From Niastella koreensis GR20-10 (GTDB taxonomy: Bacteria; Bacteroidota; Bacteroidia; Chitinophagales; Chitinophagaceae), in assembly GCF_000246855.1 (NCBI RefSeq), contig NC_016609.1:3844001-3908000 (forward strand): DNA of 64,000 bases. Reading direction: 5' to 3'. Below are positions 4,835 to 22,219 of this stretch, in pieces. The position numbers and the translations under genes were made by a program. A model generated the notes under the pieces. That model saw only the letters and a list, made by a program, of their open reading frames with translations. It was not told the DNA's origin and did no database searches. Every line of letters begins with the position of its first letter. Position 1 is the first letter of the stretch.

Positions 4835-5278
4835 ATAAATTCAAAATGTATATTATATATTATAATACTCAATAGGCTATGCAGACCCCGCCTTAGATTG
4901 CAACGCAAACAGGCAGACTGAGACTACAGCCATTAACAGAGTTAATCGCAAAAAGAGGCAGAAAAATTAAATAATCATTGGGGGATTATTCTATAACATG
5001 CCCTATTGAACCAGGGTGATGGGAAAACGTGTAGAGAAGCGGGCTTGGGGTTGGGTTTGGGGTGCATTTGATCAGGTTTTGGTAAATGGAATCAAAAGGC
5101 CGCTATGCTACAAATCTTTTCCTAATGCGGCTTAATTGTAAAATGACAAATATCAAAAAACATTTTCAATTAACCAAGACTGTTTGGTATCCGTGCATTT
5201 TTGGCAACAGCTGTGTAGTTTTGGGCGATAAGTGTACGAATCATAGGAATATCTCCTACCGCAAGAATTCCACTAGCT
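4835..5278. other. 444-bp intergenic region: AT-rich leader plus direct-repeat array A
   Basis: No convincing gene. The right part (about 5160-5250) is homologous to 7743-7830 and so belongs to the duplicated outer-membrane-protein unit. It holds direct-repeat array A. The left part (4835-4880) is very AT-rich and probably carries the promoter of the gene fragment starting at 4834, though I found no clean TAnnTTTG box. A 71-codon plus-strand frame (5086-5301) has no recognisable features. Confidence 0.5.
5189..5247. repeat. Direct-repeat array A (units about 20 bp apart)
   Basis: Three imperfect units on the plus strand share a GTG/TGTG core followed by an A/T run and GG: cores at about 5193, 5213 and 5232 (CCGTGCATTTTTGG, CTGTGTAGTTTTGGG, AAGTGTACGAATCATAGG). 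Equivalent arrays occur at five other junctions of the island. Array A lies just past the stop of the 5279-6769 gene. Confidence 0.55.
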
Positions 5279-6769
5279 TTAAAACGTATACCCCACCCTG
5301 AACTTGATTGGCTGGGTGCGCGGCACCTGTTGATAGCTCAGGAAATCGAACAACAATTGCAGTTTGGTCTTTTTGAAGAATTTGCTTTTGACACTCACGA
5401 TCTTGCTAACGCCAATGAGTCCGCTCTTTGACCACGAGGAGATCTCATTCCAGTGCATGACCGTGTTGGTATTTAAACTGTCGGACGTGATGGGTTGATA
5501 ATTGTATTCCAGTCCGCCACTGAGATAAAAGCTGCCTTTCAGTTTTACGTCGATATACGACCGCAGGCCCATGCCCTGGTTGGTGATGTGGATGTGTTTG
5601 ATGTCCTGCCCCCAGCCCATTTTATAACTGGCGCCGATACCTATGGTATTTTTATCGTTGAGCTTATACCCTACCGATAAACCGAAATCGGAGGTAGTGG
5701 GAAAGAAATTATTTTTTGCCGTCTGGATGTTGGTGCCATATTCCAGCCGTTGCCAGAAAGTTTTGGTGCGCTGGTTATTGGGTTTGAAATCGGGAATGTC
5801 GGCATCGGCACTGCTGCCGCCACCGCCGCCCAGTTTGTTCAATTTGTCTTTCAGGCTGTTTAATTGTGATTGCGCCGCCTGCAGGTTTTTTTGCAGGTAT
5901 TGCTGAGCGTTCGGTCCGCCGCCTGCCAATTGGTTCTGGATCTGCTGCTGCACCATGGAACGGGTTTGCAGTCCGGCCAAACTCGCCGGTGTGCCATAAT
6001 TATCGGGTAAGCGAAACAGGCTGGCCAGTTCGCTGTTCTGTTTCATGAAACTGGTAAATGCCGGCAGTTTGTTCAGCAGCGACAGGCCCCGCTGCACCAT
6101 TTTGTCGGGATCGTTCAGCAGGTCTTTATACTCCTTCAGCTGCGCGCTGTAGTAATAAGCTTCTTTCTGAAAACCGGTAAATTCATCGGTGAGTCCTTTG
6201 GGCAGGTTGGTAAACCGGCTCAGGGACTGTTTTATCTGTTGTTTCCGTTGCTGGATAAAGGCTTTTACCTGGTCGGCGGCCTGCAGTTTGCCCTGCAACT
6301 GGTTTACCTGCGAGAGTGAACCTTTCAGTTTATCCTGCACTTCCTTTGATTGTTCCAGTAAAGGACTGTTCTGATTCAGGAAGGCCAGGCTGGTCTTCAC
6401 CGAATCTACCATGGGCATATAGGCGCCGGAACCGCGTTTTACGGGCAGACTGTCGGTATTGATCGCGGCAATCATTTTACCGTATTGCGCATCGATGTCG
6501 CCAAAGGTTTGTTCGGCTTTGGTAGAATCCACCTTAGCCAGCTTGCGCTTCATCTTCTTCTCTTTTTTGGCCAGGCGTTGGAGGTATTTGGTGGTTTGTT
6601 TGGTCATCCGGTCTTCGAGGCCGGCGTATTTGTTCTGGATCTTGCTGAAGAACGTAGTAGGAAAACTTATAATCTTATCAACCACAGGCTCTTTTTCCTG
6701 CGCGTGGGACACCTTGCCATACAACATGCTGATGCTAACCAATAAAATCAGGAGTAAATTCTTCTTCAT
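5279..6769 (-). CDS. Exported coiled-coil/beta-barrel outer-membrane protein, copy 1
   Basis: The product is 496 aa from the ATG at 6769. I chose this start because MKKNLLLILL opens a clear signal peptide cleaved after SHAQ; the longer frame to 6829 adds 20 residues without signal character. Residues about 45-340 are highly charged and helical (KKEKKMKRK, Q-rich stretches), consistent with a periplasmic coiled coil. A Gly/Ser linker (LGGGGGSS) follows. The last about 150 residues alternate in beta-barrel style and end in VGYTF, the terminal aromatic typical of outer-membrane barrels. It is about 97% identical to 7856-9346; I counted about 14 substitutions, none in the last 90 residues. I do not know a named family. 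Its repeated position inside an Rhs island suggests a role in exporting or displaying these proteins, which is inference only. Confidence 0.75.
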   Translation of the reverse strand: MKKNLLLILLVSISMLYGKVSHAQEKEPVVDKIISFPTTFFSKIQNKYAGLEDRMTKQTTKYLQRLAKKEKKMKRKLAKVDSTKAEQTFGDIDAQYGKMIAAINTDSLPVKRGSGAYMPMVDSVKTSLAFLNQNSPLLEQSKEVQDKLKGSLSQVNQLQGKLQAADQVKAFIQQRKQQIKQSLSRFTNLPKGLTDEFTGFQKEAYYYSAQLKEYKDLLNDPDKMVQRGLSLLNKLPAFTSFMKQNSELASLFRLPDNYGTPASLAGLQTRSMVQQQIQNQLAGGGPNAQQYLQKNLQAAQSQLNSLKDKLNKLGGGGGSSADADIPDFKPNNQRTKTFWQRLEYGTNIQTAKNNFFPTTSDFGLSVGYKLNDKNTIGIGASYKMGWGQDIKHIHITNQGMGLRSYIDVKLKGSFYLSGGLEYNYQPITSDSLNTNTVMHWNEISSWSKSGLIGVSKIVSVKSKFFKKTKLQLLFDFLSYQQVPRTQPIKFRVGYTF

Positions 6770-6851
6770 GCGCAAGTTTTTTTTGGTTAAACGGGTTGGG
6801 ATAATACGAATATAAGACGCCGGAAGCACCTAAAAAAGAAACGGTAGTCCC

Positions 6852-6892
6852 ATTTGATAGATGTGTCGAATTGGGCGATAGCTGTGCGGGAA
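6852..6892. repeat. Direct-repeat array C upstream of OMP copy 1
   Basis: Two units on the plus strand, GATAGATGTGTCGAATTGGG and CGATAGCTGTGCGGGA, with cores at 6863 and 6884 (21 bp apart). In the transcription direction of the 5279-6769 gene they lie about 50-80 bp upstream of a weak -7-like box (TATATTCG at 6807-6814, minus strand). That is a reasonable place for activator sites. Confidence 0.55.
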
Positions 6893-6970
6893 AATAAATA
6901 ACTGGCCGAATATCATCCAGCCAGTTACTGAAAATAAACTATTAATAAACATTACACCTGGCACATTTCT

Positions 6971-7339
6971 TTATTTACCATGAGATACTTGTAATATTTT
7001 ACAATCACTTTTTTGTATCTCAATATGCGCAACTCCACCAACTACAATAAATATAGACCTTGAATTAGGATTAGGCTTAGAATTATAAACAGAATCACCC
7101 TTCAATGTTCCCTCAACAATCCAAACTTTGTTGTTCTCCAATCTCGCTATAAAAGGTTTTTCATTGTATATCCTATTTCCATAAATAGGAAGCCATACTG
7201 CTTCTGCAACTTTAATGGCAGTCTCTGCATCAGGAACGTAGTCCCTTTTTTCGTTCTTATTTTGGATTAAATTGCTGTAAATACTTGTAGAACATACCAA
7301 TAATAAGATAAAAAAAGCCATCAAATTAAATACCTTCAT
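6971..7339 (-). CDS. YbbC/YhhH-type NTF2-fold immunity protein
   Basis: The product is 122 aa with an N-terminal hydrophobic segment (FNLMAFFILLLV) that should export or anchor it at the inner membrane, facing the periplasm. The body carries the hallmarks of the NTF2-fold immunity family that includes E. coli YbbC and YhhH: a DAETAIKVAEAVWLPIYG segment, a WIVEGTL strand, GGVAHIEI, and the terminal K-I-L-x-V-x-H-G-K. The family length is usually about 100-130 aa. Its ATG lies inside the end of the 7326-7748 toxin-tip gene (14-nt overlap), so the two are probably translationally coupled. It would neutralise the DUF4329 tip encoded immediately before it; the pairing is inferred from gene order. 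Confidence 0.8.
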   Translation of the reverse strand: MKVFNLMAFFILLLVCSTSIYSNLIQNKNEKRDYVPDAETAIKVAEAVWLPIYGNRIYNEKPFIARLENNKVWIVEGTLKGDSVYNSKPNPNSRSIFIVVGGVAHIEIQKSDCKILQVSHGK

Positions 7340-7748
7340 AATAATCTTGTTTACTTAAAATAATCTCGTTTCCTTTTCCAAGTTCCGCCAGATATTTTCC
7401 ATGCGTATGAATTATTGCTACAAATCCTGCTACATAATCGGGCAGAACGATGTTAAAGGTTGCCCCAGCCGCTTCATCTTGGGTTTGAGGTTCAAAATAT
7501 GAATAATATATCTCTTGAGTCTTGGGATCTTGTGCTATATAAATCACAGTAATTGATTCTGTTCCTGACTTAATTGAACTCCCATTGTAAGTTTGACCAA
7601 AATCTTTAGCTGCTTCCTCCACTGATTGGAAATGATCTCCAGGCCCAGCCGCCATTCCATCCGGATCTATAAATCTAATCGGATTATTTGGCCTGGGCTG
7701 TATAACGAAGTGTTTTACCAAGAAGCTCCGGTGTGTAATAAAAAACAT
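7326..7748 (-). CDS. Detached Rhs C-terminal toxin tip with DUF4329 domain
   Basis: The 140-residue frame contains the Rhs core exit motif NNPIRFIDPDGM at about residues 21-32, followed directly by a DUF4329-like domain: FQSVEEAAKDFGQTYN, then a beta region, then IHTHG and a later L-S-K-Q-D. The HTHG...S..D arrangement resembles a JAB/MPN-type metallopeptidase site, so a peptidase or deamidase activity is plausible. Residues 1-20 do not look like Rhs core, so the gene is a tip without its several-hundred-residue carrier. The annotated ATG may not be used. Such orphan tips are known reservoirs for tip replacement in Rhs loci. It overlaps its immunity gene by 14 nt. It may be non-expressed (cassette remnant) rather than a functional gene. 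Confidence 0.7.
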   Translation of the reverse strand: MFFITHRSFLVKHFVIQPRPNNPIRFIDPDGMAAGPGDHFQSVEEAAKDFGQTYNGSSIKSGTESITVIYIAQDPKTQEIYYSYFEPQTQDEAAGATFNIVLPDYVAGFVAIIHTHGKYLAELGKGNEIILSKQDYYEGI

Positions 7749-7770
7749 TTCAATTAACCAAGACTGTTTG

Positions 7771-7829
7771 GTATCCGTGCGATTTTAGCAATAGCCGCGT
7801 AGTTTTTAGTGATAAGTGTGCCAATAGGG
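7771..7829. repeat. Direct-repeat array B
   Basis: Three units on the plus strand with cores near 7777, 7797 and 7816 (CCGTGCGATTTTAG, GCCGCGTAGTTTTTA, AAGTGTGCCAATAGGG). It aligns base for base with array A and forms the end of the duplicated OMP unit. Confidence 0.5.
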
Positions 7830-7855
7830 TATCTCTAATCAGGGATTCTTTTATT

Positions 7856-9346
7856 TTAGAAAGTATACCCCACCCTGAACTTGATCGGCTGGGTCCGCGG
7901 TACCTGCTGGTAACTCAGGAAATCGAACAGCAATTGCAGTTTGGTCTTTTTGAAGAATTTGCTTTTGACACTAACGATCTTGCTAACGCCAATGAGCCCG
8001 CTTTTTGACCAGCTGGAGATCTCATTCCAGTGCATGACCGTGTTGGTATTTAAACTGTCGGACGTGATGGGTTGATAATTGTATTCCAATCCGCCGCTGA
8101 GGTAAAAACTGCCTTTCAGTTTTACGTCGATGTACGACCGCAGGCCCATGCCCTGGTTGGTGATGTGGATGTGTTTGATATCCTGTCCCCAGCCCATTTT
8201 ATAGCTGGCGCCTACGCCGATGGTGTTTTTATCGTTGAGCTTATACCCTACCGATAAACCGAAATCGGTGGTAGTAGGAAAGAAATTGTTTTTTGCCGTC
8301 TGGATGTTGGTGCCATATTCCAGCCGTTGCCAGCAAGTTTTGGTGCGCTGGTTATTGGGTTTGAAATCGGGGATGTCTGCATCGGCACTGCTGCCACCAC
8401 CGCCGCCCAGTTTGTTTAGTTTATCCTTCAGGGTATTTAACTGTGATTGCGCCGCCTGCAGGTTTTGTTGCAGGTATTGCTGGGCGTTCGGTCCGCCGCC
8501 TGCCAATTGGTTCTGGATCTGCTGCTGCACCATGGAGCGGGTTTGCAATCCGGCCAAACTCGCCGGTGTGCCGTAATTATCGGGTAAGCGAAACAGGCTG
8601 GCCAGTTCGCTGTTCTGTTTCATGAAACTGGTAAATGCCGGCAGTTTGTTCAGCAGCGACAGGCCCCGCTGCACCATTTTATCGGGATCGTTCAGCATGT
8701 CTTTATACTCCTTTAGCTGCGCGCTGTAGTAATAAGCTTCTTTCTGAAAACCGGTAAATTCATCGGTCAGTCCTTTGGGCAGGTTGGTAAAGCGGCCCAG
8801 GGACTGTTTTATCTGTTGCTTTCGTTGCAGAATAAATGCTTTTACCTGGTCGGCCTCCTGCAATTTGCCCTGCAGCTGGTTTACCTGAGAGAGTGAGCCT
8901 TTCAGTTTATCCTGCACTTCCTTTGATTGTTCCAGTAAAGGACTGTTCTGATTCAGGAAGGCCAGGCTGGTCTTAACCGAATCTACCATGGGCATATAGG
9001 CGCCGGAACCGCGTTTTACGGGCAGACTGTCGGTATTGATCGCGGCGATCATTTTACCATATTGGGCGTCGATATCGCCAAAGGTCTGTTCAGCTTTGGC
9101 CGAATCCACCTTGGCCAGTTTGCGCTTCATTTTCTTTTCCTTTTTGGCCAGGCGCTGGAGGTATTTGGTGGTTTGTTTGGTCATTCGGTCTTCGAGACCG
9201 GCATATTTGTTCTGGATCTTGCTGAAGAATGTAGAAGGAAAATTTATAATCTTATCTGCCACAGACTCTTTTTCCTGGGCGTGGGACACCTTGCCATACA
9301 ACATACTGATGCTAACCAATAAAATCAGGAGTAAATTCTTCTTCAT
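7856..9346 (-). CDS. Exported coiled-coil/beta-barrel outer-membrane protein, copy 2
   Basis: The product is 496 aa from the ATG at 9346, chosen for the same signal-peptide reason as copy 1. Domain order is the same: signal peptide, long charged helical part, LGGGGGSS linker, and C-terminal barrel ending VGYTF. Substitutions relative to copy 1 are concentrated in the first 80 residues and around residues 160-310. One replaces Phe by Cys in the RTKTCWQRLEYG segment. DNA similarity extends past both ends of the gene (about 7743-9445 against 5160-6866), so the unit was duplicated with its flanking repeats. The function is unknown. The copies bracket a toxin-tip/immunity cassette, so recombination between them could delete or swap that cassette. 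Confidence 0.75.
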   Translation of the reverse strand: MKKNLLLILLVSISMLYGKVSHAQEKESVADKIINFPSTFFSKIQNKYAGLEDRMTKQTTKYLQRLAKKEKKMKRKLAKVDSAKAEQTFGDIDAQYGKMIAAINTDSLPVKRGSGAYMPMVDSVKTSLAFLNQNSPLLEQSKEVQDKLKGSLSQVNQLQGKLQEADQVKAFILQRKQQIKQSLGRFTNLPKGLTDEFTGFQKEAYYYSAQLKEYKDMLNDPDKMVQRGLSLLNKLPAFTSFMKQNSELASLFRLPDNYGTPASLAGLQTRSMVQQQIQNQLAGGGPNAQQYLQQNLQAAQSQLNTLKDKLNKLGGGGGSSADADIPDFKPNNQRTKTCWQRLEYGTNIQTAKNNFFPTTTDFGLSVGYKLNDKNTIGVGASYKMGWGQDIKHIHITNQGMGLRSYIDVKLKGSFYLSGGLEYNYQPITSDSLNTNTVMHWNEISSWSKSGLIGVSKIVSVKSKFFKKTKLQLLFDFLSYQQVPRTQPIKFRVGYTF

Positions 9347-9429
9347 GTGCAAGGTTGTTTTGGTTAAGCGGGTTGGGATAATACGAATATAAGACACCGG
9401 AAGCACCTAAAAAAGAAACGGTAGTCCCA

Positions 9430-9488
9430 TTTGATAGATGTGTCATTGGGGCAATAAGTGTGTGGAATTGGGGAATAGGTATGCGGGA
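9430..9488. repeat. Direct-repeat array D upstream of OMP copy 2
   Basis: Three units on the plus strand: GATAGATGTGTCATTGGGG, CAATAAGTGTGTGGAATTGG and AATAGGTATGCGGGA, with cores at about 9440, 9460 and 9481. It matches array C plus an extra central unit that also occurs in array E. A weak -7-like TATATTCG box lies downstream at 9384-9391 (minus strand). A 63-codon frame spanning 9364-9555 is a by-product of these repeats. Confidence 0.6.
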
Positions 9489-9551
9489 CGATACAGGTCA
9501 AAAATAAAAACCGGCTGGTAGAAAAACCAGCCAGTAATTGAAAAAATTCTG

Positions 9552-10013
9552 TCAATAGTCATCATATCTTTGATACCTGTACTCGCCATATTCTATAATA
9601 TGGGCTAATTCAGATACCCCATGTTTCGGGGTTACCAAATTATACATGTTTACAACCTGCTTACCATTGGTTCTGAAAATAATTGCATGGCAATGATATG
9701 CATATCCACCATGTTCGTACCCCACCACATAAACACCCTTAGACCCTGCCGCATACATATATTTTCTGGAATGTCGCATAGATCCTATATCTGAAGCATT
9801 GAATTTGTGCTTTGACAACCTGAACGTTCCTTCAAATCGCTGGTTCATATAGCTCCTTACATACTTAGGAAGGTTATTATAACTCCTGAACGAGGTACTG
9901 TCTTTATAAAGATCTTTTAGGGTTTCCTGTATTTCACTTCGGTAAAGCGTATCCTGACAATAACACTTATTGCAAACAATTAATGATATACAAATGATAA
10001 TAATTAACCTCAT
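9552..10013 (-). CDS. Exported putative immunity protein for the M91-like Rhs toxin
   Basis: The product is 153 aa with a signal peptide ([13 protein letters not shown], cleavage near CYCQ), so it should be periplasmic. The mature part has [20 protein letters not shown], a [12 protein letters not shown] motif and NMYNLV. It is a clear homologue of the protein at 20989-21456, which shares LPKYIRNYLDQKAGRKFRL, GYEHGG and HVYNLF. I do not recognise a named family. Its ATG overlaps the stop of the Rhs gene by 4 nt (ATGA), indicating translational coupling, the usual arrangement of an effector with its immunity gene. Alternative: a processing or chaperone factor for the Rhs protein. Confidence 0.7.
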
Positions 10014-13000
10014 GGTTTTACTTCTTTTATATCTGTCGGACCAGTTGTTTTGTAAATGTATCCCGTATGGTTATTCCGAACTCCTTCACCAAGCTTTTGA
10101 GCTGCTGGTGTTTCAAATTTTAGGATAACACGACGCTCCTCCGCATTATCATAAACTTGGTCTTTTGTGAATGTCCCATCCATATAATCAGCATGACTTA
10201 CAAAATCACCATAGACATGATTCATTTCATGAAAAAGTCCAATAGCAGGTGATTGAAAGGATTGCAGGAATTTCATTTGATAATTTTTTGTATCTACTAA
10301 CTGAGTAGCAGCGACTGGATTCCATTTTATAACCCGACCCATACCCAGAAATCCAGAACTATAATGATTCGGCTCATTAAAACCAAAAGCCTGCTTTATG
10401 GTAACAGTTCTTTTATCATTTGCTACAGTTTTGATAATACCATTCTCATCAGCCTTTTGGGCATATTTCAATCCTGCCACTACATTATCTACAAATTTTC
10501 CATGCACCTCATTGCCCTTCTTATCAACTGCAGTTCCATGTTCTTCATTAAAAAAAGCCTTTTGTTTATGTCCTTCGTCATCTCTGTATTTTATTTTTAT
10601 TCTTTTTCCGTCTGGATCATGAAACAAGAGTGGATTATTGGCCACATAAACATACGATGATAAACTAGTGTATTTCTCAGCCAAAGGGTCTATTGCCGAC
10701 CATCTGCCCAGTTGTGCATCATATTCCCTCGCCCCATAGTCATACCATTCCAACCCACTACCATCACTAAATTCCTTCTCCTGCTTTTCCTTGCCATTAT
10801 ATCCATACTTATTATCAAGGCGCCCGATAGCTTTCGAGCTTATCCCCGCCATTGTTAACCCAAATGGATAATAGTGCGTTTCTTCCAGCAATGCCCCCCG
10901 GATATGTTCAACTCTTATATCATCAAAATACACATCTCCCTTGCTTTCATTACTTACAAACACATAAAGATATCCATTTTGCGACATTTCTATTTCATTG
11001 CCGCCATCGGCTTGTAACAAATGCTTTTGCTCACCCGGGTGAATTTCAGGCACCGGTGTGGCGCCATACTTTACTGCCTTGAATTGCTCTTCGTCCAATA
11101 ACACATAGTTCAAAAATGCTTTGGGGGCGCCCACTACCGGGGTTTGGCTCCCCAACAGGTTTTGCATGCCTGGCTGCAACATGTTATCGGTTACCTGCGA
11201 GGCTGCGCCGCCTTTGGCCAATCCGGAGATACCGGGGGTTAACTGTCCCAGCATGTTGAAAATAACCGGGCCCAAGTTCTGATCAATACTATTATCTGTA
11301 GCAGCGGGCTTATACCAGGCAAAGGTGCTAGCTTTTATTTTATCGCCAGCCATTACCTTCAAAATAACGCCAGGCCCTACCCTGCTTTCTGCAGTACCAC
11401 CATTTACTTTGCTTACTTTCTTATTATTTATATTATCATTATCAAAAATCTCAATTTCATTATTCATGCCCGGTTTATCAGCTTCTGTAGCATTGATCTT
11501 GTCGCCAAACAATGCCACTTCAAAACTCCGGTTGGCCACCTCCATGCCTGCCTGGTAAATATCAGGCGCCTTCTGCTCATCGGTCAAAACCATTCTGATG
11601 TTGCCCAGGTGGTCTTTTAAATAATAATCATAGGCAAATGAAGTAATTGCACCATTATTATCACGCACCGGCCGGATCCTTCCTTCTTCCTGCGGCAAAA
11701 ATTGCAGTACATCATCTTCATAAGTCCCAAAAAGATATAAGGTGGTTTTGTCGGCCTTGCCAGTTTCGTGCACCACTTTTTTTAGCTTATTACCTGTAGC
11801 GTCATATGTATAAACGATGCTTCCTTTGCCGGTAACAGAAATAACTTCAGGAAGGTTTAGATGATTATAAGAAATGGAACTGACATCCTTATTATAGTCG
11901 ACATTCAAATTTCCATTTTCATCATAGTTGTAATCCGTTACTGTTGCCGGATTAATTGATGAAGGGTTTTGGCCATATGAATCTTTGGCAGCCTTCTGCG
12001 GATGCGAAACTGAATACCTGAAATCTCCCAGTTTAGTAAGTGGATCATTGCTAAGATCCATAACATTCTTCAATTTATTCGAGTAATCCTGATATGTATA
12101 CCGTAATTTATCAATTTCAGAACTCGTGCCTACTTTAAGGCCTTTCTGGTCCATACTTAAAATATTCCCATTGGCATCATAAGTAAGATTGGATACAGTA
12201 AAATCAACACCGGCGGTGGTATTAAAACCTCCATCGTATTGAGTAAAAGCAGCACCCGTAAGGCGGTTTACTGCATCATAAGAATAATCATATTTTCTGA
12301 TCTGTTGATCTCCTTTACTTTTCCAAACCGTTCCGGTGATATTTCCATTAAATTGTACTGATCCATAACTTCCAAGAGAAGGAATGCCTGATTTATCATA
12401 TGCAAGATCAAAACCAAAAGAATGATCATTGGTGGAAGTGCTTTTTGCATATTCCCGGTTAGCACCCAGCATCCACCCCCTGATGTTATAGTCATAGTTC
12501 ATTGTCTCCAGACCGGTACTATTAAATCCAGGCGCCAGTATTTTTGTTTTTAATTGACCCAACGCATCGTAAGCAAGGGAGGCCAGGGTCTTCCATCCAT
12601 TTCCATTCAGGTTCTTTTCTACGGTTATCAACCGGCCCAGATCATCATATGTACTTTTTGTAGCTATTTCAAAAGACTGAGTACTGACTCCTCCTTTACG
12701 ATGATTTAAATGGGATACCAGTAATTGACCGGAAAAGCTATACAAATTTGTTACTACATCCATCTCTCCGGTGTAATTAAGGGTTTGCACCTGTATAACC
12801 CTCCCTTTATCATCATACAGATTGCATGAAGTAATATACTTATCTTCCCCCAACACTTTTACTTTTGTCCATGTAACCAGTCCGCTGGCATTAGTGGTTA
12901 TCGACAATGGTTCCGGATAATTATTAGCCGCAGCGGTTAAATAAGCAGTATATCCACTTGATTTCAATGTAGTATACTCAAAGGCATTTGAAATGCCATC

Positions 13001-14311
13001 ATAATTATCATAATGGGTTTCAGTGAGCAGTTCATTTGAATACAACGATACATCAGGATATGATATGCTTACACCAACAGTTGTTCGATGGTAAGCTGCA
13101 TTATCAAAATAAACAGGGTCAACGATCTTAACAACAGCAACAGGCCTGTTCTGCTCATCATACCTGGTCACCAGCCATTCTTTGTTTAAACGCATGTTGG
13201 CATCCTGGCTCATCACCAGCCTGTCGCGTCCATCATATACCATCTGCACGATACCTGCACCTGGCACTTTTTTCATGATCATCCTTTTGCGAACATCATA
13301 TTCATAACGAAAGCATTGTTCATTCAGGATCGATCCACCAAGGGCGTTCGGGTCCCAGCTGTTCCCGGCCAGTAATTCAACTCCTTTCGGCTGCACTACA
13401 GCTCGTAACTGTTTGAGGTCATCATAAATAAAATAAGAGCATAACCAACCTGAATGATCCCTGCCCGAACCATCATCAGCCGATGCGGTATTCTGCACTT
13501 TCTTCAGGATCAGTTGTCCTTCTTTGTCTTTGAATTCAATCACCTGCTTACCTTTTTCATCAACCGTCACGTGTTTAAACAATACACCAGCGGCATAAAC
13601 GCCATTGCTACCCGCCACAGTATTGTAACTGCCAAAATCGTTTTGATTATCGTTTACGGTCCAGATCCGCACTTCGTCAGTCAGGGTATTCGTCCAATAC
13701 TTTATTTTCATTCCGTTTCCCTGGTTTACCCAGCTGTTACCAGGTGCATAGGTTCTTTCTGTCCTGCTTAAAGGTGAAGGCTCAAACTCTGTTTTACCAT
13801 AATAGAAAGTTTCCCCCTGACCTTTAATGGGACTGCTCACATTATTATCGCTGTAAAAATATTGCTGTTGCTCGAATGGGTTTAACTTAACCTGCCCGTC
13901 ACTCACAGAAGAATTCCCTCCCTGGGTGTTAGCAGCAAAAGACAGGTATTGTCTGGATACTCTGCCGAACTCATCGTATACAGTTGGTGTAACAAGGTCT
14001 GCAGGAAGACCGCTGGTTGGCAGAGATCCCTGCCGTACCACAGTTTCCAATGGCCGCCCCAACCCATCGAGATATTGGGTGGCCAGTTTTACTTCCTTTA
14101 AAGGACGGCTCATCAGCACATCAGGATCGGTGATGGGCGCCTGCGCTTCCCACGTCCTGACATAATTTACCGGACCTGTATAATTGGGGGGCGTTACAGG
14201 TGTAGCATCCTGTGCATGCACCTGTGAAACCAGCAATACACAAAAAGGTGCTATTAATTTTATAATAGATGTATATCGATACATGGGATTCGATTTATTT
14301 GTTGATTGCAT
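10010..14311 (-). CDS. DUF6443/Rhs-repeat secreted protein with HExxH (M91-like) metalloprotease tip
   Basis: The product is 1433 aa. A signal peptide is best read from the internal Met at 14284 ([10 protein letters not shown], cleavage after VHAQ); the ATG at 14311 has a purine-rich AAAGGAAA upstream and is equally possible. Residues about 45-200 match DUF6443 ([36 protein letters not shown]). YD repeats then fill the middle, with [10 protein letters not shown] near the end of the core. The exit motif [12 protein letters not shown] (about 10608-10645) is followed by a tip of about 198 residues. The tip has VIKWNP, then [11 protein letters not shown], then an NAEERRV segment. This is the order seen in M91/NleD-type zinc peptidases, with His-Glu-x-x-His as zinc site (10213-10236). 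The gene lies 17 bp after the GPx-like gene and overlaps its immunity candidate. It should be exported by Sec and cut proteins in a neighbour cell, which is inference. Confidence 0.85.
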
Positions 14312-14330
14312 GCATTTACTTTATTTCCTT

Positions 14331-14882: not shown

Positions 14883-14902
14883 TTATTATTTTTTGCGGTT
14901 CA

Positions 14903-17900
14903 CTAATCCGAATAAACGGTGTTACAGGACCCGTATTGATCTGCCGTAAAGGGAACTCCATAAATCGTAATGACATTATAACCATTGGCCCAATAATTAC
15001 ATCCCGCAGAGAAAGAATGGGAATTGCGGCCTGAGTCATCAGGCCAAAAAATGATATCATACGTCCCCGGGGTTATGGCAAGCGGAACATCACTTGCATA
15101 CGGTCGAATGTTAAAATAAAAACCTTCATCGGTGGTGTTATTGTAAAACCATACGTCAACATCCCGTTCGCCGGAATTGGTATACAGAACGTTTATGGTA
15201 TTTAACTCACAGGAACCGTTTTCATTAGCATATTCCTGTCCGTTGTCATAGAGATCTTCTTCGGCCTGCGCATCGGCATCTTCCTGACTTATGGTTGAAC
15301 TGTACCTGTTTGCCGGAACAACATAAGTGACCTGGGTACCGGAGCTGCCGCTCCCGCAATCGTTTTTCTGGAAATTAATGGACATTTCTCCACTATTCCA
15401 GAAGCACACACCATTTGCATTGGCATAGTTCTGGCCGTTTGCATTCGCATCGTTTGTTGCTTTATTGTTTGCATCGGAAGCACTGATGGTTGAAGAATAG
15501 GCACCCTGAGGAACAATGTAGTTTACAACACTGCCACTGCCACCGGGGGTACAGTTCTTTTGATACGAAGTAACCAACCGGTCGTTGTACCAGGTACAAT
15601 AACCAATGCTATCGGCATAGGCCTGCCCTTTGGCATCAAGATCGTTTTGGGCTAACTGATCTGCGGCTTGCTGGCTGGATGCAGCATACATGCCGGCAGG
15701 AACTGTATAAGTAACAGAAGAAGGTGCGCCATTCAAGGTGCAATTATCTTTTGTAAACGTCCTGCTCTTTACTACGTTATGGTAAACAACCACACACGAC
15801 CCGTTTTTATCTGCATTGGCCTGCCCGTTTGCATCAAGATCATTTTGAGCCAGTACATCGGCATTAGGACCAAAATAAGTGTTGGCAGGAACTGTATAAG
15901 TAACAGAGGTCCCGATTAATCCTGCGGTACCATCACAACCACTTTTTGTAAATATTTTGGTTTTTGCTGCGTTACCGGCAAGATCACAACTACTTTGCTG
16001 ACCAACATAACTATAGCAGAACTTTCTCAGAATATTCGCGTTCTCATCTCTTATTAAACTTACCCTGCCAAAACCATCATATTCAAAGTAGGTAATATAC
16101 CCCCGCTCATCGCATTTGCTGGTCATGCCTGTTAACGGTTCATAGGTAAAGGTTGACATTTTAGCTTCTTTAGGATGGAGGCGCAGTTCGTCTATACCTC
16201 CATTGCCTGTAATAGTTACAGTGGCCTGCCCTGTAACCTGGTGCTGATAATAAGTCCACCTAACACCATTAACCGTAATAGTTCTACCCTGTACAATACT
16301 CCCTGTATTACCGGTTACTGAGTAAGAGCCGCCATTGCTCCAATAGGAAACAAGATATACCGCCGCGGTATTTAATCCGGATTTTTGGATAGCCCCATTT
16401 AACAGGGAATAACTTTTGCCCCCCGTTACTCCATTGGTTGCACGGGTAACACTGCCAATATCCCAGTTCCCCGTTCCATCGGCCTCAAACGAGGTATATG
16501 CTATTGAGTTATAATCGGCATTACTGCATTGGGCAACCGGGTAAACAGACTGGTAATCCCAAATAAAAGTTTGAAAAATATCATTTTCCTTTTGTTGCTG
16601 CAGAATATTACCATACTCATCAAACCTGTTGAACCGGACTTTTGTTTCAACAGGACTGCTTTTGACCTGCACATCTACATTTTGAGGTTGCAGCAATTTT
16701 GTATTTCCAAACCAATCAGTATAATGTATGGTAGTAAGGGATTGTTGAACCCCGCTCAATAATTTCTGTTCCGAAACAACCGGAGAAACAATATTCCGGT
16801 CAATCATTCCCTGGTAAACATTACCGGAAGAAGAAAAATCGTAGGGATATTGAAAATTATCTGTAAGAATCTCACCCTTGCTATTATATTCCTGTGAACT
16901 GGTAACGAACGTGTGCCTATCATCATTATAATAATAATTCTTCCCTGTCACCAGTTGATTATTATTATCATCCCAGGTGGTATCTGATGTGGATTGCAAC
17001 AGCATAGCGCCGGAATAAACAGGAAGGCGAATGAGGGTAAAACCATTTTTCGCCCAGGGAATATCAGAGGAAGTATAACATCCTCCTGTAAAAAGTATTC
17101 TGGTAGTTACTTTAAGCCCCATCATTGTATCAGCCCGCTGAACCTGGTATATATTTCGTTTTGAATGAATCAGGTCATAACCATTAGTAACGCTGTTGTA
17201 TTTATAATCATGCTGCCAGCCAGGAAACCCATTTTTCCATTCATTCTGAATAAGCAGAACACCTACTCTCCCATAATCGCTCGATGCATAACCGGGCCCG
17301 TCTTCAAAAATTTCATATCCAAAATCACTTTTACCATTTATTGCGTTTCCCGATGCGTTAACCTGGTATTTGGTTACACTGCTGTAAAGTACCGGGCTGC
17401 CACCAAACTGGCTGGCCGGATAAACACTATTGGCATGATAGATAGTACCATCTGCACCATACGAATCAACATAATAACAGGAACTGGAATTATAATTGTT
17501 CCCACATCTCCAGCGTACATTTTCATAATTAACCAGTAAATAATTCGCTTCTGTAAGCAATTTCCCGATTCCATCTTCACCTACTCCATACTTGTATATA
17601 TCCTTATTGACAAACTCCCCATTGATATCATAATTGGTCACAGTTTTCACCCTCAATCCTCCACCAATGGGCTGAACAGGAACATTCGTATAAGTTTGCA
17701 CCCATGAAACTGTTGCCGTGGCAATAACATTTGAGTTGGTGGTATAAATATCGGTTACAATAGAATAGGTATGCCCTGTTATTACATTAAGAACCAACGT
17801 ACCGGAACTGTAACTATGGTAAGCATCCGAATTGGATGCAAATAAAATTTGCTGACTGGTGGTCAAATCAGTGATCCTTACTCTTGGCCGGTCTGTTACG

Positions 17901-19468
17901 TTGGGGTAATTATAACTGCTGATGTATATATTAAAGCTATACCCTGTTGTATTTTCAGCTGCCGTAAAAGTTGCTGTATTGGTTTGCTGCACCCCGCCAT
18001 ATGCATCGCAATGCACTGCTTTGTTCTCCGTGTAATCAATGTGAGAATTATATTGATGGGGTTCAAATTCAAATACGGTCTTTCCCCTGGTAGGATATTC
18101 AATTGAATTGATATTACAAGCCTGCATAGCCGCTGCGTCAGGCTCCCGGTTCGCCGCCCCTATAGTGTAATACGCTCCATTATACAAAACGGTTTGGGTA
18201 GGCATCAGGGAAGAATTGCCAACCTGGCCGTTATTAAAACCCCATTTATCCTGTGCATAAGATTCCCGGGGGGCCATCGGCTGACTGGAATTATAGGTCA
18301 TTCTATAACAATACTTCTGTGCATCCAGGGTAGACATAAAGCCAACCGAATCTAGTCTTAAGCGGTAATTTTTTTCATCAACCGTGCCATAAGGAATTGG
18401 ATCACTGAAAAAATAGGACTGATAAAGCTTTATTTTTTTTACCAGTTTCAGCTGGTCATTTTGATTGGAATAAACACTTACTTCATCAAGCCTTTTTTCA
18501 GACGCCTTATCCTGTCTGCCACATGTATAACTCAAAGTTATTTTACCACCCCGCCAGCTTATCTCATTTGGATATAATTGATCGTTGTGGTAAACTGTAC
18601 TCCTTGAATAGGTTGGCCCAAAATAAGAAACAGCATCACTACCTTCACAATTTGCCCCATATCCCAGCGTGTACCCAAAATTTTCATAATGGCTTACATT
18701 CACATCACAGGCAGTTTCATACTTAAAACTAATTGTATCGGTGCCATTTTGATCTATTATCATTGACAATCGCCAGGTACTGAAATAATCAGGTGAAGCA
18801 GAGGCGCCTACATAACTTGTACGCTCCTTTTTATCGAAGATATATTGCACTCCATTTTCATCAATAATCGTAAAATCATTCCCATTTTTGATTATCCGGT
18901 TATTGGTTCTTGGAATCTGCATAATAGAGCCATCCTTTTTGAAAATGAATTTTCCACTTTGTCCATTTAATGAATAGGAAAAAACATCGGGCTCTGTTTC
19001 ATTTTCATGATACATCGACAGATATATCAGATATTGGGAATATTTATTTGCAATGCCAGTGCCATAATCTGCACCTGTTTGCCAGTTGTAAAGGGAATCG
19101 AAATCCGGAGAATTCAAATATCCGGCGGGGCTTTCATCCGGCTGCCCTACCATGTTCCTGGAAATGGCGCCAACGCCATTTAAAGCCCAACCCAGTCCAA
19201 CACTCGACGATATTTCGTCTACACGAATACCGCCGGCATGGTAATCAAATGAAACAGGTAATTTGATCTTTCCAATGTTAATTTCATAAATGGGAATCGT
19301 AATCGCCGGAACGCCGGTTGAATAACTTACCGGCACATTTCCAAACTTGCCCAAACTGGCAACATCCGGAGACACCGTACTTACGTTAACCAGGTTTTGA
19401 AAGGAATTTTGCGCACTAACAACATGTGACAATAAGGCAAATGTCAATATAGCAATGACAATTTTCAT
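14903..19468 (-). CDS. Giant secreted YD-repeat/SpvB-like protein with four C-terminal DUF5977 repeats
   Basis: The product is 1521 aa with a signal peptide (MKIVIAILTFALLSHVVSAQ). The N-terminal 250 residues have the SLGKFGNVPVSY, TIPIYEINIG and SSSVGLGWAL pattern found in large Bacteroidota YD proteins. A long beta-rich middle follows, then a short YD stretch (YITYFEYDGFGRVSLI). The C-terminus holds four copies of a DUF5977-type repeat of about 55 residues (roughly 15210-15965). Each has F-T/Q-K..C at the start, a Y-x-VPA segment, and ends A-N/D-x-x-G-x-C. A final beta domain of about 100 residues closes the protein. There is no Rhs exit motif and no recognisable toxin. It heads an operon with the GPx-like gene and the Rhs toxin gene. 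A partner for display, adhesion or binding is more likely than a toxin, but this is inferred. Confidence 0.8.
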   Translation of the reverse strand: MKIVIAILTFALLSHVVSAQNSFQNLVNVSTVSPDVASLGKFGNVPVSYSTGVPAITIPIYEINIGKIKLPVSFDYHAGGIRVDEISSSVGLGWALNGVGAISRNMVGQPDESPAGYLNSPDFDSLYNWQTGADYGTGIANKYSQYLIYLSMYHENETEPDVFSYSLNGQSGKFIFKKDGSIMQIPRTNNRIIKNGNDFTIIDENGVQYIFDKKERTSYVGASASPDYFSTWRLSMIIDQNGTDTISFKYETACDVNVSHYENFGYTLGYGANCEGSDAVSYFGPTYSRSTVYHNDQLYPNEISWRGGKITLSYTCGRQDKASEKRLDEVSVYSNQNDQLKLVKKIKLYQSYFFSDPIPYGTVDEKNYRLRLDSVGFMSTLDAQKYCYRMTYNSSQPMAPRESYAQDKWGFNNGQVGNSSLMPTQTVLYNGAYYTIGAANREPDAAAMQACNINSIEYPTRGKTVFEFEPHQYNSHIDYTENKAVHCDAYGGVQQTNTATFTAAENTTGYSFNIYISSYNYPNVTDRPRVRITDLTTSQQILFASNSDAYHSYSSGTLVLNVITGHTYSIVTDIYTTNSNVIATATVSWVQTYTNVPVQPIGGGLRVKTVTNYDINGEFVNKDIYKYGVGEDGIGKLLTEANYLLVNYENVRWRCGNNYNSSSCYYVDSYGADGTIYHANSVYPASQFGGSPVLYSSVTKYQVNASGNAINGKSDFGYEIFEDGPGYASSDYGRVGVLLIQNEWKNGFPGWQHDYKYNSVTNGYDLIHSKRNIYQVQRADTMMGLKVTTRILFTGGCYTSSDIPWAKNGFTLIRLPVYSGAMLLQSTSDTTWDDNNNQLVTGKNYYYNDDRHTFVTSSQEYNSKGEILTDNFQYPYDFSSSGNVYQGMIDRNIVSPVVSEQKLLSGVQQSLTTIHYTDWFGNTKLLQPQNVDVQVKSSPVETKVRFNRFDEYGNILQQQKENDIFQTFIWDYQSVYPVAQCSNADYNSIAYTSFEADGTGNWDIGSVTRATNGVTGGKSYSLLNGAIQKSGLNTAAVYLVSYWSNGGSYSVTGNTGSIVQGRTITVNGVRWTYYQHQVTGQATVTITGNGGIDELRLHPKEAKMSTFTYEPLTGMTSKCDERGYITYFEYDGFGRVSLIRDENANILRKFCYSYVGQQSSCDLAGNAAKTKIFTKSGCDGTAGLIGTSVTYTVPANTYFGPNADVLAQNDLDANGQANADKNGSCVVVYHNVVKSRTFTKDNCTLNGAPSSVTYTVPAGMYAASSQQAADQLAQNDLDAKGQAYADSIGYCTWYNDRLVTSYQKNCTPGGSGSVVNYIVPQGAYSSTISASDANNKATNDANANGQNYANANGVCFWNSGEMSINFQKNDCGSGSSGTQVTYVVPANRYSSTISQEDADAQAEEDLYDNGQEYANENGSCELNTINVLYTNSGERDVDVWFYNNTTDEGFYFNIRPYASDVPLAITPGTYDIIFWPDDSGRNSHSFSAGCNYWANGYNVITIYGVPFTADQYGSCNTVYSD
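15210..15965 (-). repeat. Four tandem DUF5977-type coding repeats
   Basis: The encoded segments begin KIFTKSGC, SRTFTKDNC, TSYQKNC and INFQKNDC and end ANADKNGSC, AYADSIGYC, NYANANGVC and EYANENGSC. Each is about 55 residues and has a paired cysteine at either end, which suggests one disulfide per repeat. Copies differ at most positions, so this is an old internal duplication rather than an unstable DNA repeat. Confidence 0.75.
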
Positions 19469-19629
19469 AGCGTAACTATCTATTATTGAAAAAAGAAAAA
19501 GAGAATTGGGAAATCAGCGCCTGTGGTACCTTGAGAGAGTACCTTGTTTAAATGGCGGAATGAATTGAAATACAGCAAGTACGTTTAAATATACTTTTCT
19601 CATGTGGTCGGGTTCTTTAAGGGTTCGGA

Positions 19630-19637
19630 CAAAGATA
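19630..19637 (-). promoter_or_regulatory. -7 box of the giant YD operon (TATCTTTG)
   Basis: The minus strand reads TATCTTTG, an exact match to the Bacteroidota -7 consensus TAnnTTTG, about 160 bp upstream of the ATG at 19468. The upstream sequence is AT-rich with no exact TTTG at the expected -33 spacing, so it may need an activator. Confidence 0.4.
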
Positions 19638-19747
19638 ATATTATCCTGATAAAATATATTTATTTTATTACATAAATCAGAAAGATTTAGTCACGAAGTG
19701 GTAAAAACGATACACCAATTATCAAAAAAGATATGCTAGGTGACGTT

Positions 19748-19787
19748 TAGCAATAAGTGTGTGGAATTGGGGGACAGGTGTGTTGGG
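19748..19787. repeat. Direct-repeat array E
   Basis: Two plus-strand units, CAATAAGTGTGTGGAATTGG and ACAGGTGTGTTGGGA, with cores at about 19759 and 19780 (21 bp apart). The first unit is identical over 20 bases to the central unit of array D, which is 10 kb away. Confidence 0.55.
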
Positions 19788-19923
19788 AGAAAAAGAAAGG
19801 CTGCCCCAAAATGGAACGGGTCGTCAATTCGCTTTCCATTGGAATTCAGCGGAAGTCCCCCGATGTGTTTTGCAATATTAAATATAGCTGTTTCAGCAGC
19901 AATAATGCTTTGAAGTGGAGAAA

Positions 19924-20418
19924 TTACTCTCTTCCAATCTCTTTCTCCTCTTGCAACTCAGCGTATCGCAGCCAGAATAATTCATAAAATGATTTGTCGC
20001 CATCAGGCACTTCAATCTCACCTTCTGCATCACATACTTTATGCAATAAAGGATTATCATCCTGTAAGATCCTTTGAATAGCTAACCTATTGGTAACCTT
20101 ATTTACGACCATTTGTCGCAAAGAAATAGCATGATGCATATCAGGCCACAACATTGGCTTATAATCAAAACATTCATCAAATATAAAAGAGGGTAAAGCC
20201 GCTTCATTAGTTAAATTATTCAATGAATCTGAATACACTTTCATATGTCTTTCTGCGTTAAAATCCAGATAAAGCGCAACAGGTTTAACCCATTTACGTG
20301 GGTCCATCTCCTTTTTCGCTATTCTCATGAGACGCTTTTGGTTATTACAGAAGGATAGGGCTAACCCTGCAGTCAGGCAAAAAACAATTGTTTTTATCTT
20401 CAAAGGTAAACGAGGCAC
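19924..20418 (-). CDS. Exported protein of unknown function
   Basis: The product is 164 aa and starts with GTG at 20418, sharing its first G with the upstream TAG stop (TAGTG), so it is translated by coupling. The N-terminus KIKTIVFCLTAGLALSFC is a signal or lipoprotein-like segment, although Phe before Cys is a poor lipobox. The mature part has the sequence KWVKPVALYLDF and a C-terminal FYELFWLRYAELQEEKE helix. I do not recognise a family. Its place in an Rhs island next to an orphan immunity gene makes an immunity or effector-associated role possible. Confidence 0.5.
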   Translation of the reverse strand: MPRLPLKIKTIVFCLTAGLALSFCNNQKRLMRIAKKEMDPRKWVKPVALYLDFNAERHMKVYSDSLNNLTNEAALPSFIFDECFDYKPMLWPDMHHAISLRQMVVNKVTNRLAIQRILQDDNPLLHKVCDAEGEIEVPDGDKSFYELFWLRYAELQEEKEIGRE

Positions 20419-20834
20419 TATTTGATCGTTATTTTGGAACCGTTATTTAAAATATCATCATAGGAATACACCAACCTTCTCAGATAAAGATTATTGGAAT
20501 TAATAGAACTCCAGCTTGAATCCCTCATTGTCTTTTCTGCAATAACAAAAACCAGCAAAGTATCTTTTGCCATACATTGTCTCCACGCGGATTTAACACA
20601 AAGATATTCATAGAATAATCTTTGTTTTTGTGCTGATTTAACAAAGAAAACAGCATCGTTTGCCAGAATATCATGTCTATCAAATTGAACAAGTGAGGTA
20701 TCAGGGTAGTTAAATCCGGGTAAACAAAATACATTCTGATTGAGCTGATTTTCAACTTCAATATAATTCTTCACCCTATGACATTTAAATGCCAAAAGAG
20801 GCAATAACAACAGAAATACTAATATTTTTTTCAT
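20418..20834 (-). CDS. Putative lipoprotein or exported protein of unknown function
   Basis: The product is 138 aa with a strong signal peptide (MKKILVFLLLLPLLAFKC); the Cys at 18 could be a lipidation site, but the lipobox is poor. The mature protein carries an ENQLNQNVFCLPGF segment, F-F-V-K-S and a SNNLYLRRLVYSYDDIL terminus, suggesting a small beta-rich domain. No known family is recognised. It is coupled to the next gene through the shared TAGTG. The pair sits between arrays E and F together with an immunity paralogue. Confidence 0.5.
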   Translation of the reverse strand: MKKILVFLLLLPLLAFKCHRVKNYIEVENQLNQNVFCLPGFNYPDTSLVQFDRHDILANDAVFFVKSAQKQRLFYEYLCVKSAWRQCMAKDTLLVFVIAEKTMRDSSWSSINSNNLYLRRLVYSYDDILNNGSKITIK

Positions 20835-20988
20835 TCTTATAATTTTCTGGCAGGCAGCACTCTAATACTTCAAAGTAACCTTTCTTGAAAATATGTAGTT
20901 AATTCCAAAAAAAGTTCGGCATTTGACTGATCGATCATCTGATAGTTTTTAGGGTCTTAATAAATTCAGATTTAGCATCGTTTTCGCC

Positions 20989-21456
20989 TCAAAAATGAAC
21001 GTTCTCCTCAAAATAATAATAATTCTCCTCAACATTTCTCTTAATATCATTTAGCCCAAGCATTTTTGCACCAAATAAATTGTAGACATGCTGCACTTTT
21101 CCTGCAGCTGTTTTAAAGAGCAAAACATGAATATGATGTCCAGCTCCCCCATGCTCATAACCCAGCATGTATATACTGGAGGAGCCACCAATAAACAGTA
21201 ATTTCCTATTTAATAAAAAGGGCGACAGGTTATCTGTGGCATTATATTTCTTCGTCGCCAGCCTGAACTTTCTCCCAGCCTTCTGGTCTAAATAATTTCG
21301 GATATACTTTGGTAACTGTCTATAATGCTCAACTGAAAAACTGTCCTTATTATACAACTCTATCTCAGAAAAAACTTCCTTTTTCCAAAGACTGTCCTGG
21401 GTAAAACCATTATAACCTGCAATCAGAAAAATACAATTTATGATAAATGTTTTCAT
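20989..21456 (-). CDS. Orphan exported immunity-family protein (paralogue of 9552-10013)
   Basis: The product is 155 aa with a signal peptide (MKTFIINCIFLIAG, cleavage near GFTQ). It aligns along its full length with the 9552-10013 product: LYNKDSFSVEHYRQLPKYIR matches [19 protein letters not shown], and GYEHGGAGHHIH matches [12 protein letters not shown]. No toxin gene precedes it here; the upstream 300 bp hold only a coding remnant. Orphan immunity genes that protect against relatives' toxins are common beside Rhs loci, and that is the likely role by analogy. Confidence 0.65.
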   Translation of the reverse strand: MKTFIINCIFLIAGYNGFTQDSLWKKEVFSEIELYNKDSFSVEHYRQLPKYIRNYLDQKAGRKFRLATKKYNATDNLSPFLLNRKLLFIGGSSSIYMLGYEHGGAGHHIHVLLFKTAAGKVQHVYNLFGAKMLGLNDIKRNVEENYYYFEENVHF

Positions 21457-21486
21457 AGTTATCGAAAGACTATATAGGATTGTTAT

Positions 21487-21630
21487 TTACCGAAGCCGCT
21501 TCAGGAATTTTATCTGATCATCCCAAAACAAAATCTTTCTATCCTTAATAAGCGAAAAAAGAAGTTCATACCTGTCAACAGCCGGTTCTTTTTCTATGAC
21601 CCCAATCAGATCACCCTTAAAAGCAACTTT
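21487..21630 (-). pseudogene. Short 3' remnant of an unknown gene
   Basis: The minus strand between in-frame stops at 21631-21633 and 21487-21489 encodes 47 residues with good coding character (GDLIGVIEKEPAVDRY, LFSLIKDRKILFWDDQIKF). It has no start codon. Upstream of the in-frame stop the same frame continues with a membrane-like stretch (AGLVIIGVIRSF), suggesting a decayed small exported protein such as another immunity gene. No family is identified. Confidence 0.35.
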
Positions 21631-21710
21631 TTATTCATCAAAACTTCTTATAACCCCGATGATAACCAATCCCGCGCATAAATAAAAGCTTTATCAATTC
21701 TTTTTCACAA

Positions 21711-21757
21711 CCGTGCTGTTTTGGGTTATAAGTGTGTGAATTTGGCGGATAACTGCG
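21711..21757. repeat. Direct-repeat array F
   Basis: Three plus-strand units (CCGTGCTGTTTTGGG, AAGTGTGTGAATTTGGCG, ACTGCGTTACTC) with cores at about 21713, 21734 and 21755, exactly 21 bp apart. It abuts the stop codon of the 21758-22156 gene and marks the right border of the Rhs island. Confidence 0.55.
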
Positions 21758-22156
21758 TTACTCCGCATTGATCTTCACCTGGTACAACAGGTTACCTATA
21801 TTGTTACTGATATCTTCCAGCAACAAAACCTGTTGGTACCGGCTCAGCGAATTGGAGCTGCCAAACATTTTTGACAACAGCGTTTTAAAGGAGGTGTGAT
21901 CTGCCGTGGGGCGGGTATTATCGAGTGAAGTAAGATGCTGCTGGTATTTTGCCACCAGCGCATTGATGTGCTCATTGTTTTGCTGCGCTGCAAAATCAAT
22001 CAGCTGCGGAGTGAGTTCCCGGTAAAACTTCCACCAGCTGTCAAATTCGCCATCATGGGTGCTCAGGTTGCGGTTCCGGCTCCGCACTTCTGTTAACATA
22101 TTCCTGCCTGCATCTTCCAGGTACTGTAACGACCTGATGAGGTTATTTTCCTGCAT
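21758..22156 (-). CDS. Small helical protein of unknown function beside a two-component system
   Basis: The product is 132 aa, predicted mostly alpha-helical and without a signal peptide. Recognisable pieces are SLQYLEDAGRNML, FDSWWKFYREL and LLEDISNNIGNLLYQVK. I recognise no family. It begins 63 bp after the response-regulator gene in the same direction, so it may be co-transcribed and could act in the same pathway. Confidence 0.5.
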   Translation of the reverse strand: MQENNLIRSLQYLEDAGRNMLTEVRSRNRNLSTHDGEFDSWWKFYRELTPQLIDFAAQQNNEHINALVAKYQQHLTSLDNTRPTADHTSFKTLLSKMFGSSNSLSRYQQVLLLEDISNNIGNLLYQVKINAE

Positions 22157-22219
22157 AAAAAAGGCTTTAGGGAAGGCTCCTGCGAATTTACCATTCCTTT
22201 GCCCGCTTTCCTTGCTTTT

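Follow-up and report, generated by a model that had tools for sequence, protein, structure and literature searches.

We have examined six arrays of short direct repeats in a 64,000-nucleotide stretch (called the window below; G000 C1:3844001-3908000) of the single-contig genome of Niastella koreensis GR20-10 (9,033,684 bases). We conclude, with a probability of about 0.7, that the arrays are operators for a response regulator (RR) of the LytTR type which, together with Reg_prop/Y_Y_Y histidine kinases, would activate ca 35 promoters. Judged from the sequence, they are promoter-proximal operators and probably activator sites, and one sensor-regulator pair probably reads all of them. The argument is built on the sequence and conservation of the arrays, their orientation, their distance to the -7 box and their linkage to LytTR genes in relatives, and from these we infer the binding, the activation, the signal and the transcription of a candidate RNA behind one of the arrays.

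The repeat unit, obtained with iterated unit matrices, reads A/G-ATAA-G/C-C/T-GTG-T/C and is followed by a AGTTTTGGC(C)-like linker. A full array has three cores of ca 10 nt at intervals of 20 or 21 bp and then 21 bp. Among the arrays of this genome, the first interval is 20-21 bp in 29 of 30 and the second is 21 bp in 28 of 30, with a fit that permitted 20-22 bp only; an alignment of 25 arrays was made alongside. Two profile models were used for searching, R1 built from nine arrays and R2 from 25, and 150 first-look candidates were scored out of 1204 (R1) and 2754 (R2). A first-pass annotation of the window had placed six arrays between 5189 and 21757, each with two or three units 19-21 bp apart. 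All six are found at these places, every one in plus orientation by both the unit matrices and R2 (Table 1). The repeats are real, and their description is refined to three cores as the normal state, the copies at 6857 and 19746 being degenerate. Pairs of units (score >=8) 20-22 bp apart occur five times in the window, contributed by four of the six arrays, and never in 30 first-order Markov resamplings of it, the matrix for this comparison having been trained partly on the window arrays themselves. Single units scoring >12 arise by chance, on average 3.7 times per resampling, and it is therefore the spacing that carries the signal.

In the whole genome, R1 marks 32 places at E<0.03 and R2 finds 36 arrays at E<0.005, 25 of which are its own training members. 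Twenty-nine of the 36 lie elsewhere in the genome and seven in an Rhs island (3843109-3865761), six of these inside the window and the seventh just beyond its edge, at genome 3843109-3843151. The remainder of the window gave no further array with R2. To call the arrays a feature of the Rhs island was too narrow, although seven there is far above the 0.09 expected under an even spread (three of the seven trained R2); part of the excess is one tandem duplication. Genus mates that had not contributed to training carry 12-41 arrays each in nine genomes of nine (R2, E<=0.01), and the same search gave none in 14 family mates and one weak array in 15 order mates. With stricter filters and E<=1e-4, arrays occur in 12 of 195 family genomes, from 8 of 101 genera: three genomes of the own genus (21-27 each), G184 (12), G197 (10), G108 (8) and G149 (4), and a single array in each of G059, G068, G125, G174 and G176. 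The copies have cores and linkers in common, and mostly not their flanks.

The position of the arrays relative to genes was analyzed for 77 of them, taken from the window and from stretches of G000 (24), G003 (20), G009 (12) and G004 (8) picked from the best-scoring matches. Two of the 79 R2 matches were omitted: stretch L001 holds a duplicate of window array 1, and the match in L138 is a fragment of 14.6 bits. Genes were called by a simple codon-score caller, and orthologous arrays were counted separately and are hence not independent. The gene on the 5' side points away from the array in 68 of 77 cases (44 co-directional, 24 divergent; binomial 1e-12), and in 20 of 22 arrays from other genera (18 co-directional, 2 divergent, against 2 convergent; binomial 6e-5). 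None of the 77 is wholly within a called gene, and none of the 22 is wholly within one as judged by the gene lists. A -7 box resembling TAnnTTTG, scored with a table set by hand, stands 25-33 nt past the array toward the gene in 48/77, vs 12/77 on the control side. In Niastella, this distance has two maxima a helical turn from each other, at 28 nt and at 38 nt; the 34-42 nt range alone gives 17 vs 10 (P 0.2). In other genera, the two ranges give 9/22 vs 1/22 and 8/22 vs 1/22, respectively. TTTG is also found in the first ca 13 nt past the array, in 14/77 vs 2/77 and, in other genera, 9/22 vs 1/22. The arrays thus immediately precede the -35/-33 element, and their direct repeats are ca 21 bp apart with 10-13 bp spacers, both as in LytTR operators. 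In the genome and its relatives alike the arrays are promoter-linked, and their position at the rng locus is kept across three genera.

The connection to LytTR proteins comes from relatives. In G149, an operon of a sensor (Reg_prop, Y_Y_Y, His_kinase) and a LytTR RR (PF00072 + PF04397, receiver and LytTR domains) is preceded, at 282 bp, by an array. This RR has two close relatives in the N. koreensis genome (G000), at C1:8146762-8147499 (group i) and C1:3795834 (group ii); the latter is the best candidate regulator. Accompanied by between one and three sensors, members of its group lie 9-15 kb away from an array in seven of nine Niastella stretches (those of G009 and G006 have no array near it within the stretch); in G108, G197 and G184 the distance is 3-12 kb, this nearness being largely one inherited arrangement and the cases not independent. 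Close RRs (E<=1e-75) occur in 23 of the 195 family genomes, and arrays at E<=1e-4 in 10/23 of these vs 2/172 of the others. When 15 RR loci were searched without filters, an array was found 6-99 bp behind the RR gene, reading onward, in seven at E<0.01 (G176, G182, G059, G195, G164, G082 and G123; E 2e-11 to 9e-4) and in eight at E<0.05 (also G106, E 0.039). Control LytTR loci gave 0/15 and 1/15, and their best match (G016, E 0.013) has the same position, following an RR that belongs to the wider group. A site-linked receiver and LytTR protein is thus present in relatives; in N. koreensis itself the nearest array is ca 9 kb from the candidate. Together with the place of the arrays before the -7 box, this linkage gives good support to the earlier suggestion that some factor recognizes direct repeats spaced by two helical turns, for which LytTR proteins had been named as an example.

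In the mechanism that we propose, the operator would consist of sites in direct repeat, as a rule three of them, separated by two helical turns and just upstream of the -33 element. A LytTR-type RR, most likely the group (ii) candidate or a close paralogue, would bind the array, and signalling by the Reg_prop/Y_Y_Y histidine kinases would make it activate transcription. The ca 35 promoters with this operator would serve Rhs/DUF5977-type giant proteins, an outer membrane protein (OMP) family, type IX cargo and the gene of the candidate RNA, whose neighbour encodes an RNase E/G-family protein.

A number of results weigh against this proposal. The orientation rule fails in 9/77 arrays (six convergent, four of them at the RNA locus, and three same-strand), and a -7 box close to one of the two registers is seen for only three of the six window arrays, arrays 3, 5 and 6 having no good one in register. 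Seven of the 15 RR loci have no adjacent array (G197, G108, G184, G072, G051, G124 and G149), and 13 of the 23 close-RR genomes have no genome-wide array match, although in six of these the RRs show 56-61% identity. The weak RR-side arrays account for G182, G195, G123, G106, G164 and G082, and not for G051, G072 and G124. In G174, a partial LytTR RR is followed after ca 170 bp by an array, but this array points toward the RR, and the RR is nearest another group. These array-less genomes and the G174 orientation lowered our confidence in both the LytTR reading and the wider regulon. Furthermore, five of 13 array stretches checked contain no LytTR RR of this kind. The N. koreensis genome has 39 LytTR matches, and the protein is therefore not pinned; two of them lie within 3 kb of the 36 arrays, about one being expected, so there is no general closeness. 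Finally, the Niastella core RCACRSTTATY (toward the gene) fits the 'GTT' core of the LytTR family consensus only partly and varies at that G; the RR-linked cores of the relatives, several of which read CACAGTTAT, agree better with it.

A strict rule by which the presence of a group (ii) RR means many arrays was perfect in the first trees and broke across the 195 genomes, which the locus-level search explains in part. Within g3, a group (ii) RR is present in G197 (10 arrays), and G011 (none) and G125 (one, weak) are without it among the 3/7 and 2/4 matches placed. A wider RR tree blurs the edge of the group, and a comparison of LytTR-domain residues between RR groups gave no clear result. The best 60 of 144 PDB matches fall mostly on the receiver domain, a single one (3d6w) on the C-terminal part, and thus offered no mapping onto AgrA.

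AraC-type direct half-sites 21 bp apart are known, and the arrays might be operators of that family, or of the NarL-type RR at window 22220-22879, with the LytTR linkage a local coincidence. The NarL RR and its 132-aa partner gene adjoin an array in the window, as they do in stretch L103 of G009, and a relative of the 132-aa gene, alone, adjoins one in G004 (L117). Three of 47 GerE matches are within 3 kb of N. koreensis arrays where about one is expected, and a general closeness of GerE genes to the arrays was rejected. We consider an operator of another family unlikely, as same-strand linkage at <100 bp to one LytTR group is seen in eight genomes, against one weak case (G016) in 15 controls. 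Slightly less likely still is that the operator and the LytTR protein are as proposed and act mainly in repression, in the manner of CoxC, a LytTR repressor with three repeats overlapping the -35 element (PMC11347149). The arrays here typically end ca 28 nt before the -7 box, at or above -33, with a second peak one turn off, which resembles activating LytTR sites.

The first-pass annotation had also offered the arrays as recombination sites that move cassettes, and it agrees with this that arrays 1 and 3 flank a tandem duplication of 2.58 kb and that seven arrays occur in 23 kb. Ordinary homologous recombination accounts for the duplication, however, and sites at promoters genome-wide, with a preferred -7 distance, mostly one gene orientation and a conserved position at rng in three genera, are not promoter-independent ends of mobile units; site-specific attachment was rejected and is very improbable. 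The least probable explanation, by a small margin, is a selfish repeat with no regulatory role: the arrays are dispersed, intergenic, multi-copy and abundant in one genus, but their similarity is mostly confined to cores and linkers, they are placed before a -7 box and they keep their position at orthologous loci.

Returning to the LytTR operator, published direct and triple LytTR repeats make the architecture known in kind, and the array geometry matches them, triple repeats included (PMC6193735 and PMC11347149). The RcoM and CoxC operators, described for cox promoters (PMC11347149), have three direct repeats, TTCNNGCA, with 12-13 bp spacers or 18-21 bp intervals, and CoxC senses CO and represses. 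The arrays share with them three direct repeats two turns apart by a promoter and an implicated LytTR DNA-binding domain, and differ in standing at ca 35 promoters, in a protein of the response-regulator type and in their core. In the streptococcal LytTR Regulatory Systems (LRS) of HdrR and BrsR, the direct repeats are for the most part separated by 12 bp and tend to lie 10 bp above -35 (PMC6193735). As there and for AgrA (PMC4227749), the repeats are shortly upstream of -35 and regulator genes are linked to their own sites; unlike those systems, with two repeats and other promoters, the arrays are usually triple and belong to Bacteroidota TAnnTTTG promoters. Our literature searches found no regulon of this kind described for this group of soil bacteria, and no paper on LytTR in Niastella or Chitinophaga, on a Chitinophaga direct-repeat regulon or on a Bacteroidetes LytTR regulon with a small RNA. 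New, as far as these searches show, are the Bacteroidota version, its spread over ca 35 promoters and the link to Rhs cassettes and an RNA.

We lean, with some reserve, towards the view that a LytTR system which in many Chitinophagaceae seems to serve its neighbour gene only has expanded, in Niastella and at least two other lineages, into a genome-wide triple-repeat regulon in which giant surface proteins and type IX cargo are united with Rhs toxin/immunity cassettes and with a new, conserved RNA of ca 75 nt beside an RNase E/G gene. A two-component system of local reach would here apparently have become a global one, with contact-toxin cassettes tied to one switch, and the operators of a large regulon in soil bacteria could be read as a code, with a named candidate regulator.

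The genes behind the 77 arrays fall partly into recurrent families: DUF5977/YD-like giant proteins (eight rows, one of which, window array 6, is an artefact of a gene missed by the caller), the OMP family (five rows), a five-member unknown family and the BACON-containing family 70 (five rows, four genes). Pfam matches among 28 array-borne genes include PKD/CBM96, CHU_C, Por_Secre_tail (type IX) and alginate-lyase-like proteins, and also GH88, NHL-repeat, LamG, MacB and glycosyltransferase proteins; about one third of the 28 have no match. OMP homologues were found at 22 loci across the genus. The expectation that arrays track these genes held: 15 of 17 full-length homologues at >=54% identity have an array on the 5' side (12/14 when the three own copies are left out), the exceptions being L265 and L266, and the array of L258 is weak (21.8 bits). 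At 39-42% identity none of three has one, and of the partial homologues one of two. In G006 (L261), opposed arrays at 3055-3111 (+) and 3145-3202 (-), with 33 bp between them, adjoin an OMP homologue as a divergent switch pair.

The regulon would also include the ca 75-nt candidate RNA, which sits between a convergent RNase E/G-family gene (rng) and a zinc-peptidase gene. The order at this locus is the array with a TAATTTTG-type box, then a TCTGATTCAC...TATATT stretch, then a terminator-like hairpin. The stretch is identical over 41 nt in ten Niastella and Longitalea loci, nine of them found by exact match to 25 of the 41 nt, and the identity over those 25 nt is thus a product of selection by the search. 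The exact scan matched nine contigs, seven of Niastella and two of Longitalea; with <=3 mismatches the core is found in 3/195 family genomes, all of the own genus. All 12 RNA loci scanned have an array, two of the twelve duplicating others' sequence in the stretch compared. In G108 and G197, an array and a diverged RNA relative adjoin the same rng gene (protein 92-94% identical). One stem pair of the hairpin is altered on both sides between RNA sequences, and the folding z-score is -5.3 for the own RNA, -2.2 for the G108 relative and -1.7 for that of G197. A small protein was considered and rejected: both Longitalea sequences have no ATG there, and the loop changes length by 2 nt, which argues for an RNA. 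Rfam gave no match up to E 0.5 in stretches L119, L123, L099 and L097 (24 kb), so that the regulon offers a conserved candidate RNA without an Rfam match. The direct repeats of CiaR, an OmpR-type RR, drive csRNAs besides protein genes; an RR with direct repeats would here likewise drive a small RNA along with protein genes, the repeats and RNAs being unrelated. A second conserved non-coding leader or RNA follows an array in L099, L111, L123 and L094; its start is AT-rich, and it closes in a hairpin-like structure ahead of a T run (alignment A7).

Table 1. Arrays, -7 boxes and genes of the island (window coordinates), with the candidate RNA and regulator (genome coordinates).
Feature	Position	Strand	Remarks
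Array 1, three units	5183..5239	+	R2 50.3 bits, R2 training member; promoter reads on - strand
-7-like box of array 1, GATATTTG	5154-5147	-	28 nt after array
Array 2, two clear units	6857..6887	+	Degenerate copy; R2 20.9 bits, unit scores 22.0/10.4; outside R2 training set
-7 box of array 2, TATATTCG	6814-6807		Precedes OMP copy 1
Array 3, three units	7767..7824	+	Copy of array 1; no -7 box in register
Array 4	9429..9480	+	R2 30.3 bits; outside R2 training set
-7 box of array 4, TATATTCG	9391-9384		37 nt from array; precedes OMP copy 2
Array 5, two clear units and degenerate third	19746..19784	+	R2 21.1 bits; outside R2 training set
Nearest strong -7-like box to array 5, TATCTTTG	19637-19630		108 nt off, out of register
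Array 6, three units	21703..21760	+	R2 48.9 bits, R2 training member; no good -7 box in register
312-aa gene, the first one called beyond array 1	3896..4834	-	Grouped by blastp with giant DUF5977/YD-like family 14
OMP gene copy 1	5279..6769	-	After array 2; homologues carry arrays
Imm-NTF2-2 immunity gene	6971-7339		Next after DUF4329-like open reading frame (ORF)
DUF4329-like ORF	7326..7748	-	After array 3; under Pfam cut-off
OMP gene copy 2	7856..9346	-	After array 4
Rhs gene	10010-14311	-	Downstream of giant DUF5977 gene, same strand
Giant DUF5977 protein gene	14903..19468	-	After array 5
155-aa ORF	20989..21456	-	Follows array 6; its position alone makes it a candidate orphan immunity gene; without Pfam match
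Candidate RNA, ca 75 nt	G000:C1 about 7217650-7217830 (L119 2700-3060; L149 1463-1536 -)		Array-preceded
Best candidate regulator, LytTR RR	C1:3795834-3796580	-	Group (ii)

Within the island, the arrays do fall at the borders of gene blocks, as had been noticed, because they stand at the 5' ends of minus-strand transcription units. That seven occur in 23 kb is explained by the island being made of co-directional regulon members, in part a tandem duplication of array and OMP gene. Arrays 1 and 3 have in common an 86-nt repeat (5156-5241 and 7740-7825; 84% identical) at a distance of 2,584 bp, and the offset between the repeated OMP regions is 2,577 bp, which gives a 2.58-kb duplication over window 5156-9430; the two OMP proteins are 96% identical. 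The array 3 flank diverges from that of array 1 ahead of the -7 box, so that array 3 resembles, and likely is, a severed copy of the array 1 promoter. The outer array of the second duplicate copy is fused to the DUF4329-like ORF. For the OMP genes, the GTG starts given by the ORF finder (ORFs 5279-6829 and 7856-9406) lie upstream of the -7 box, and the ATGs at 6769 and 9346 are therefore the likelier starts. Beyond array 6, window 21758-24875 holds the NarL-type RR, a TPR histidine kinase and the 132-aa gene, relatives of which adjoin arrays in G004 and G009.

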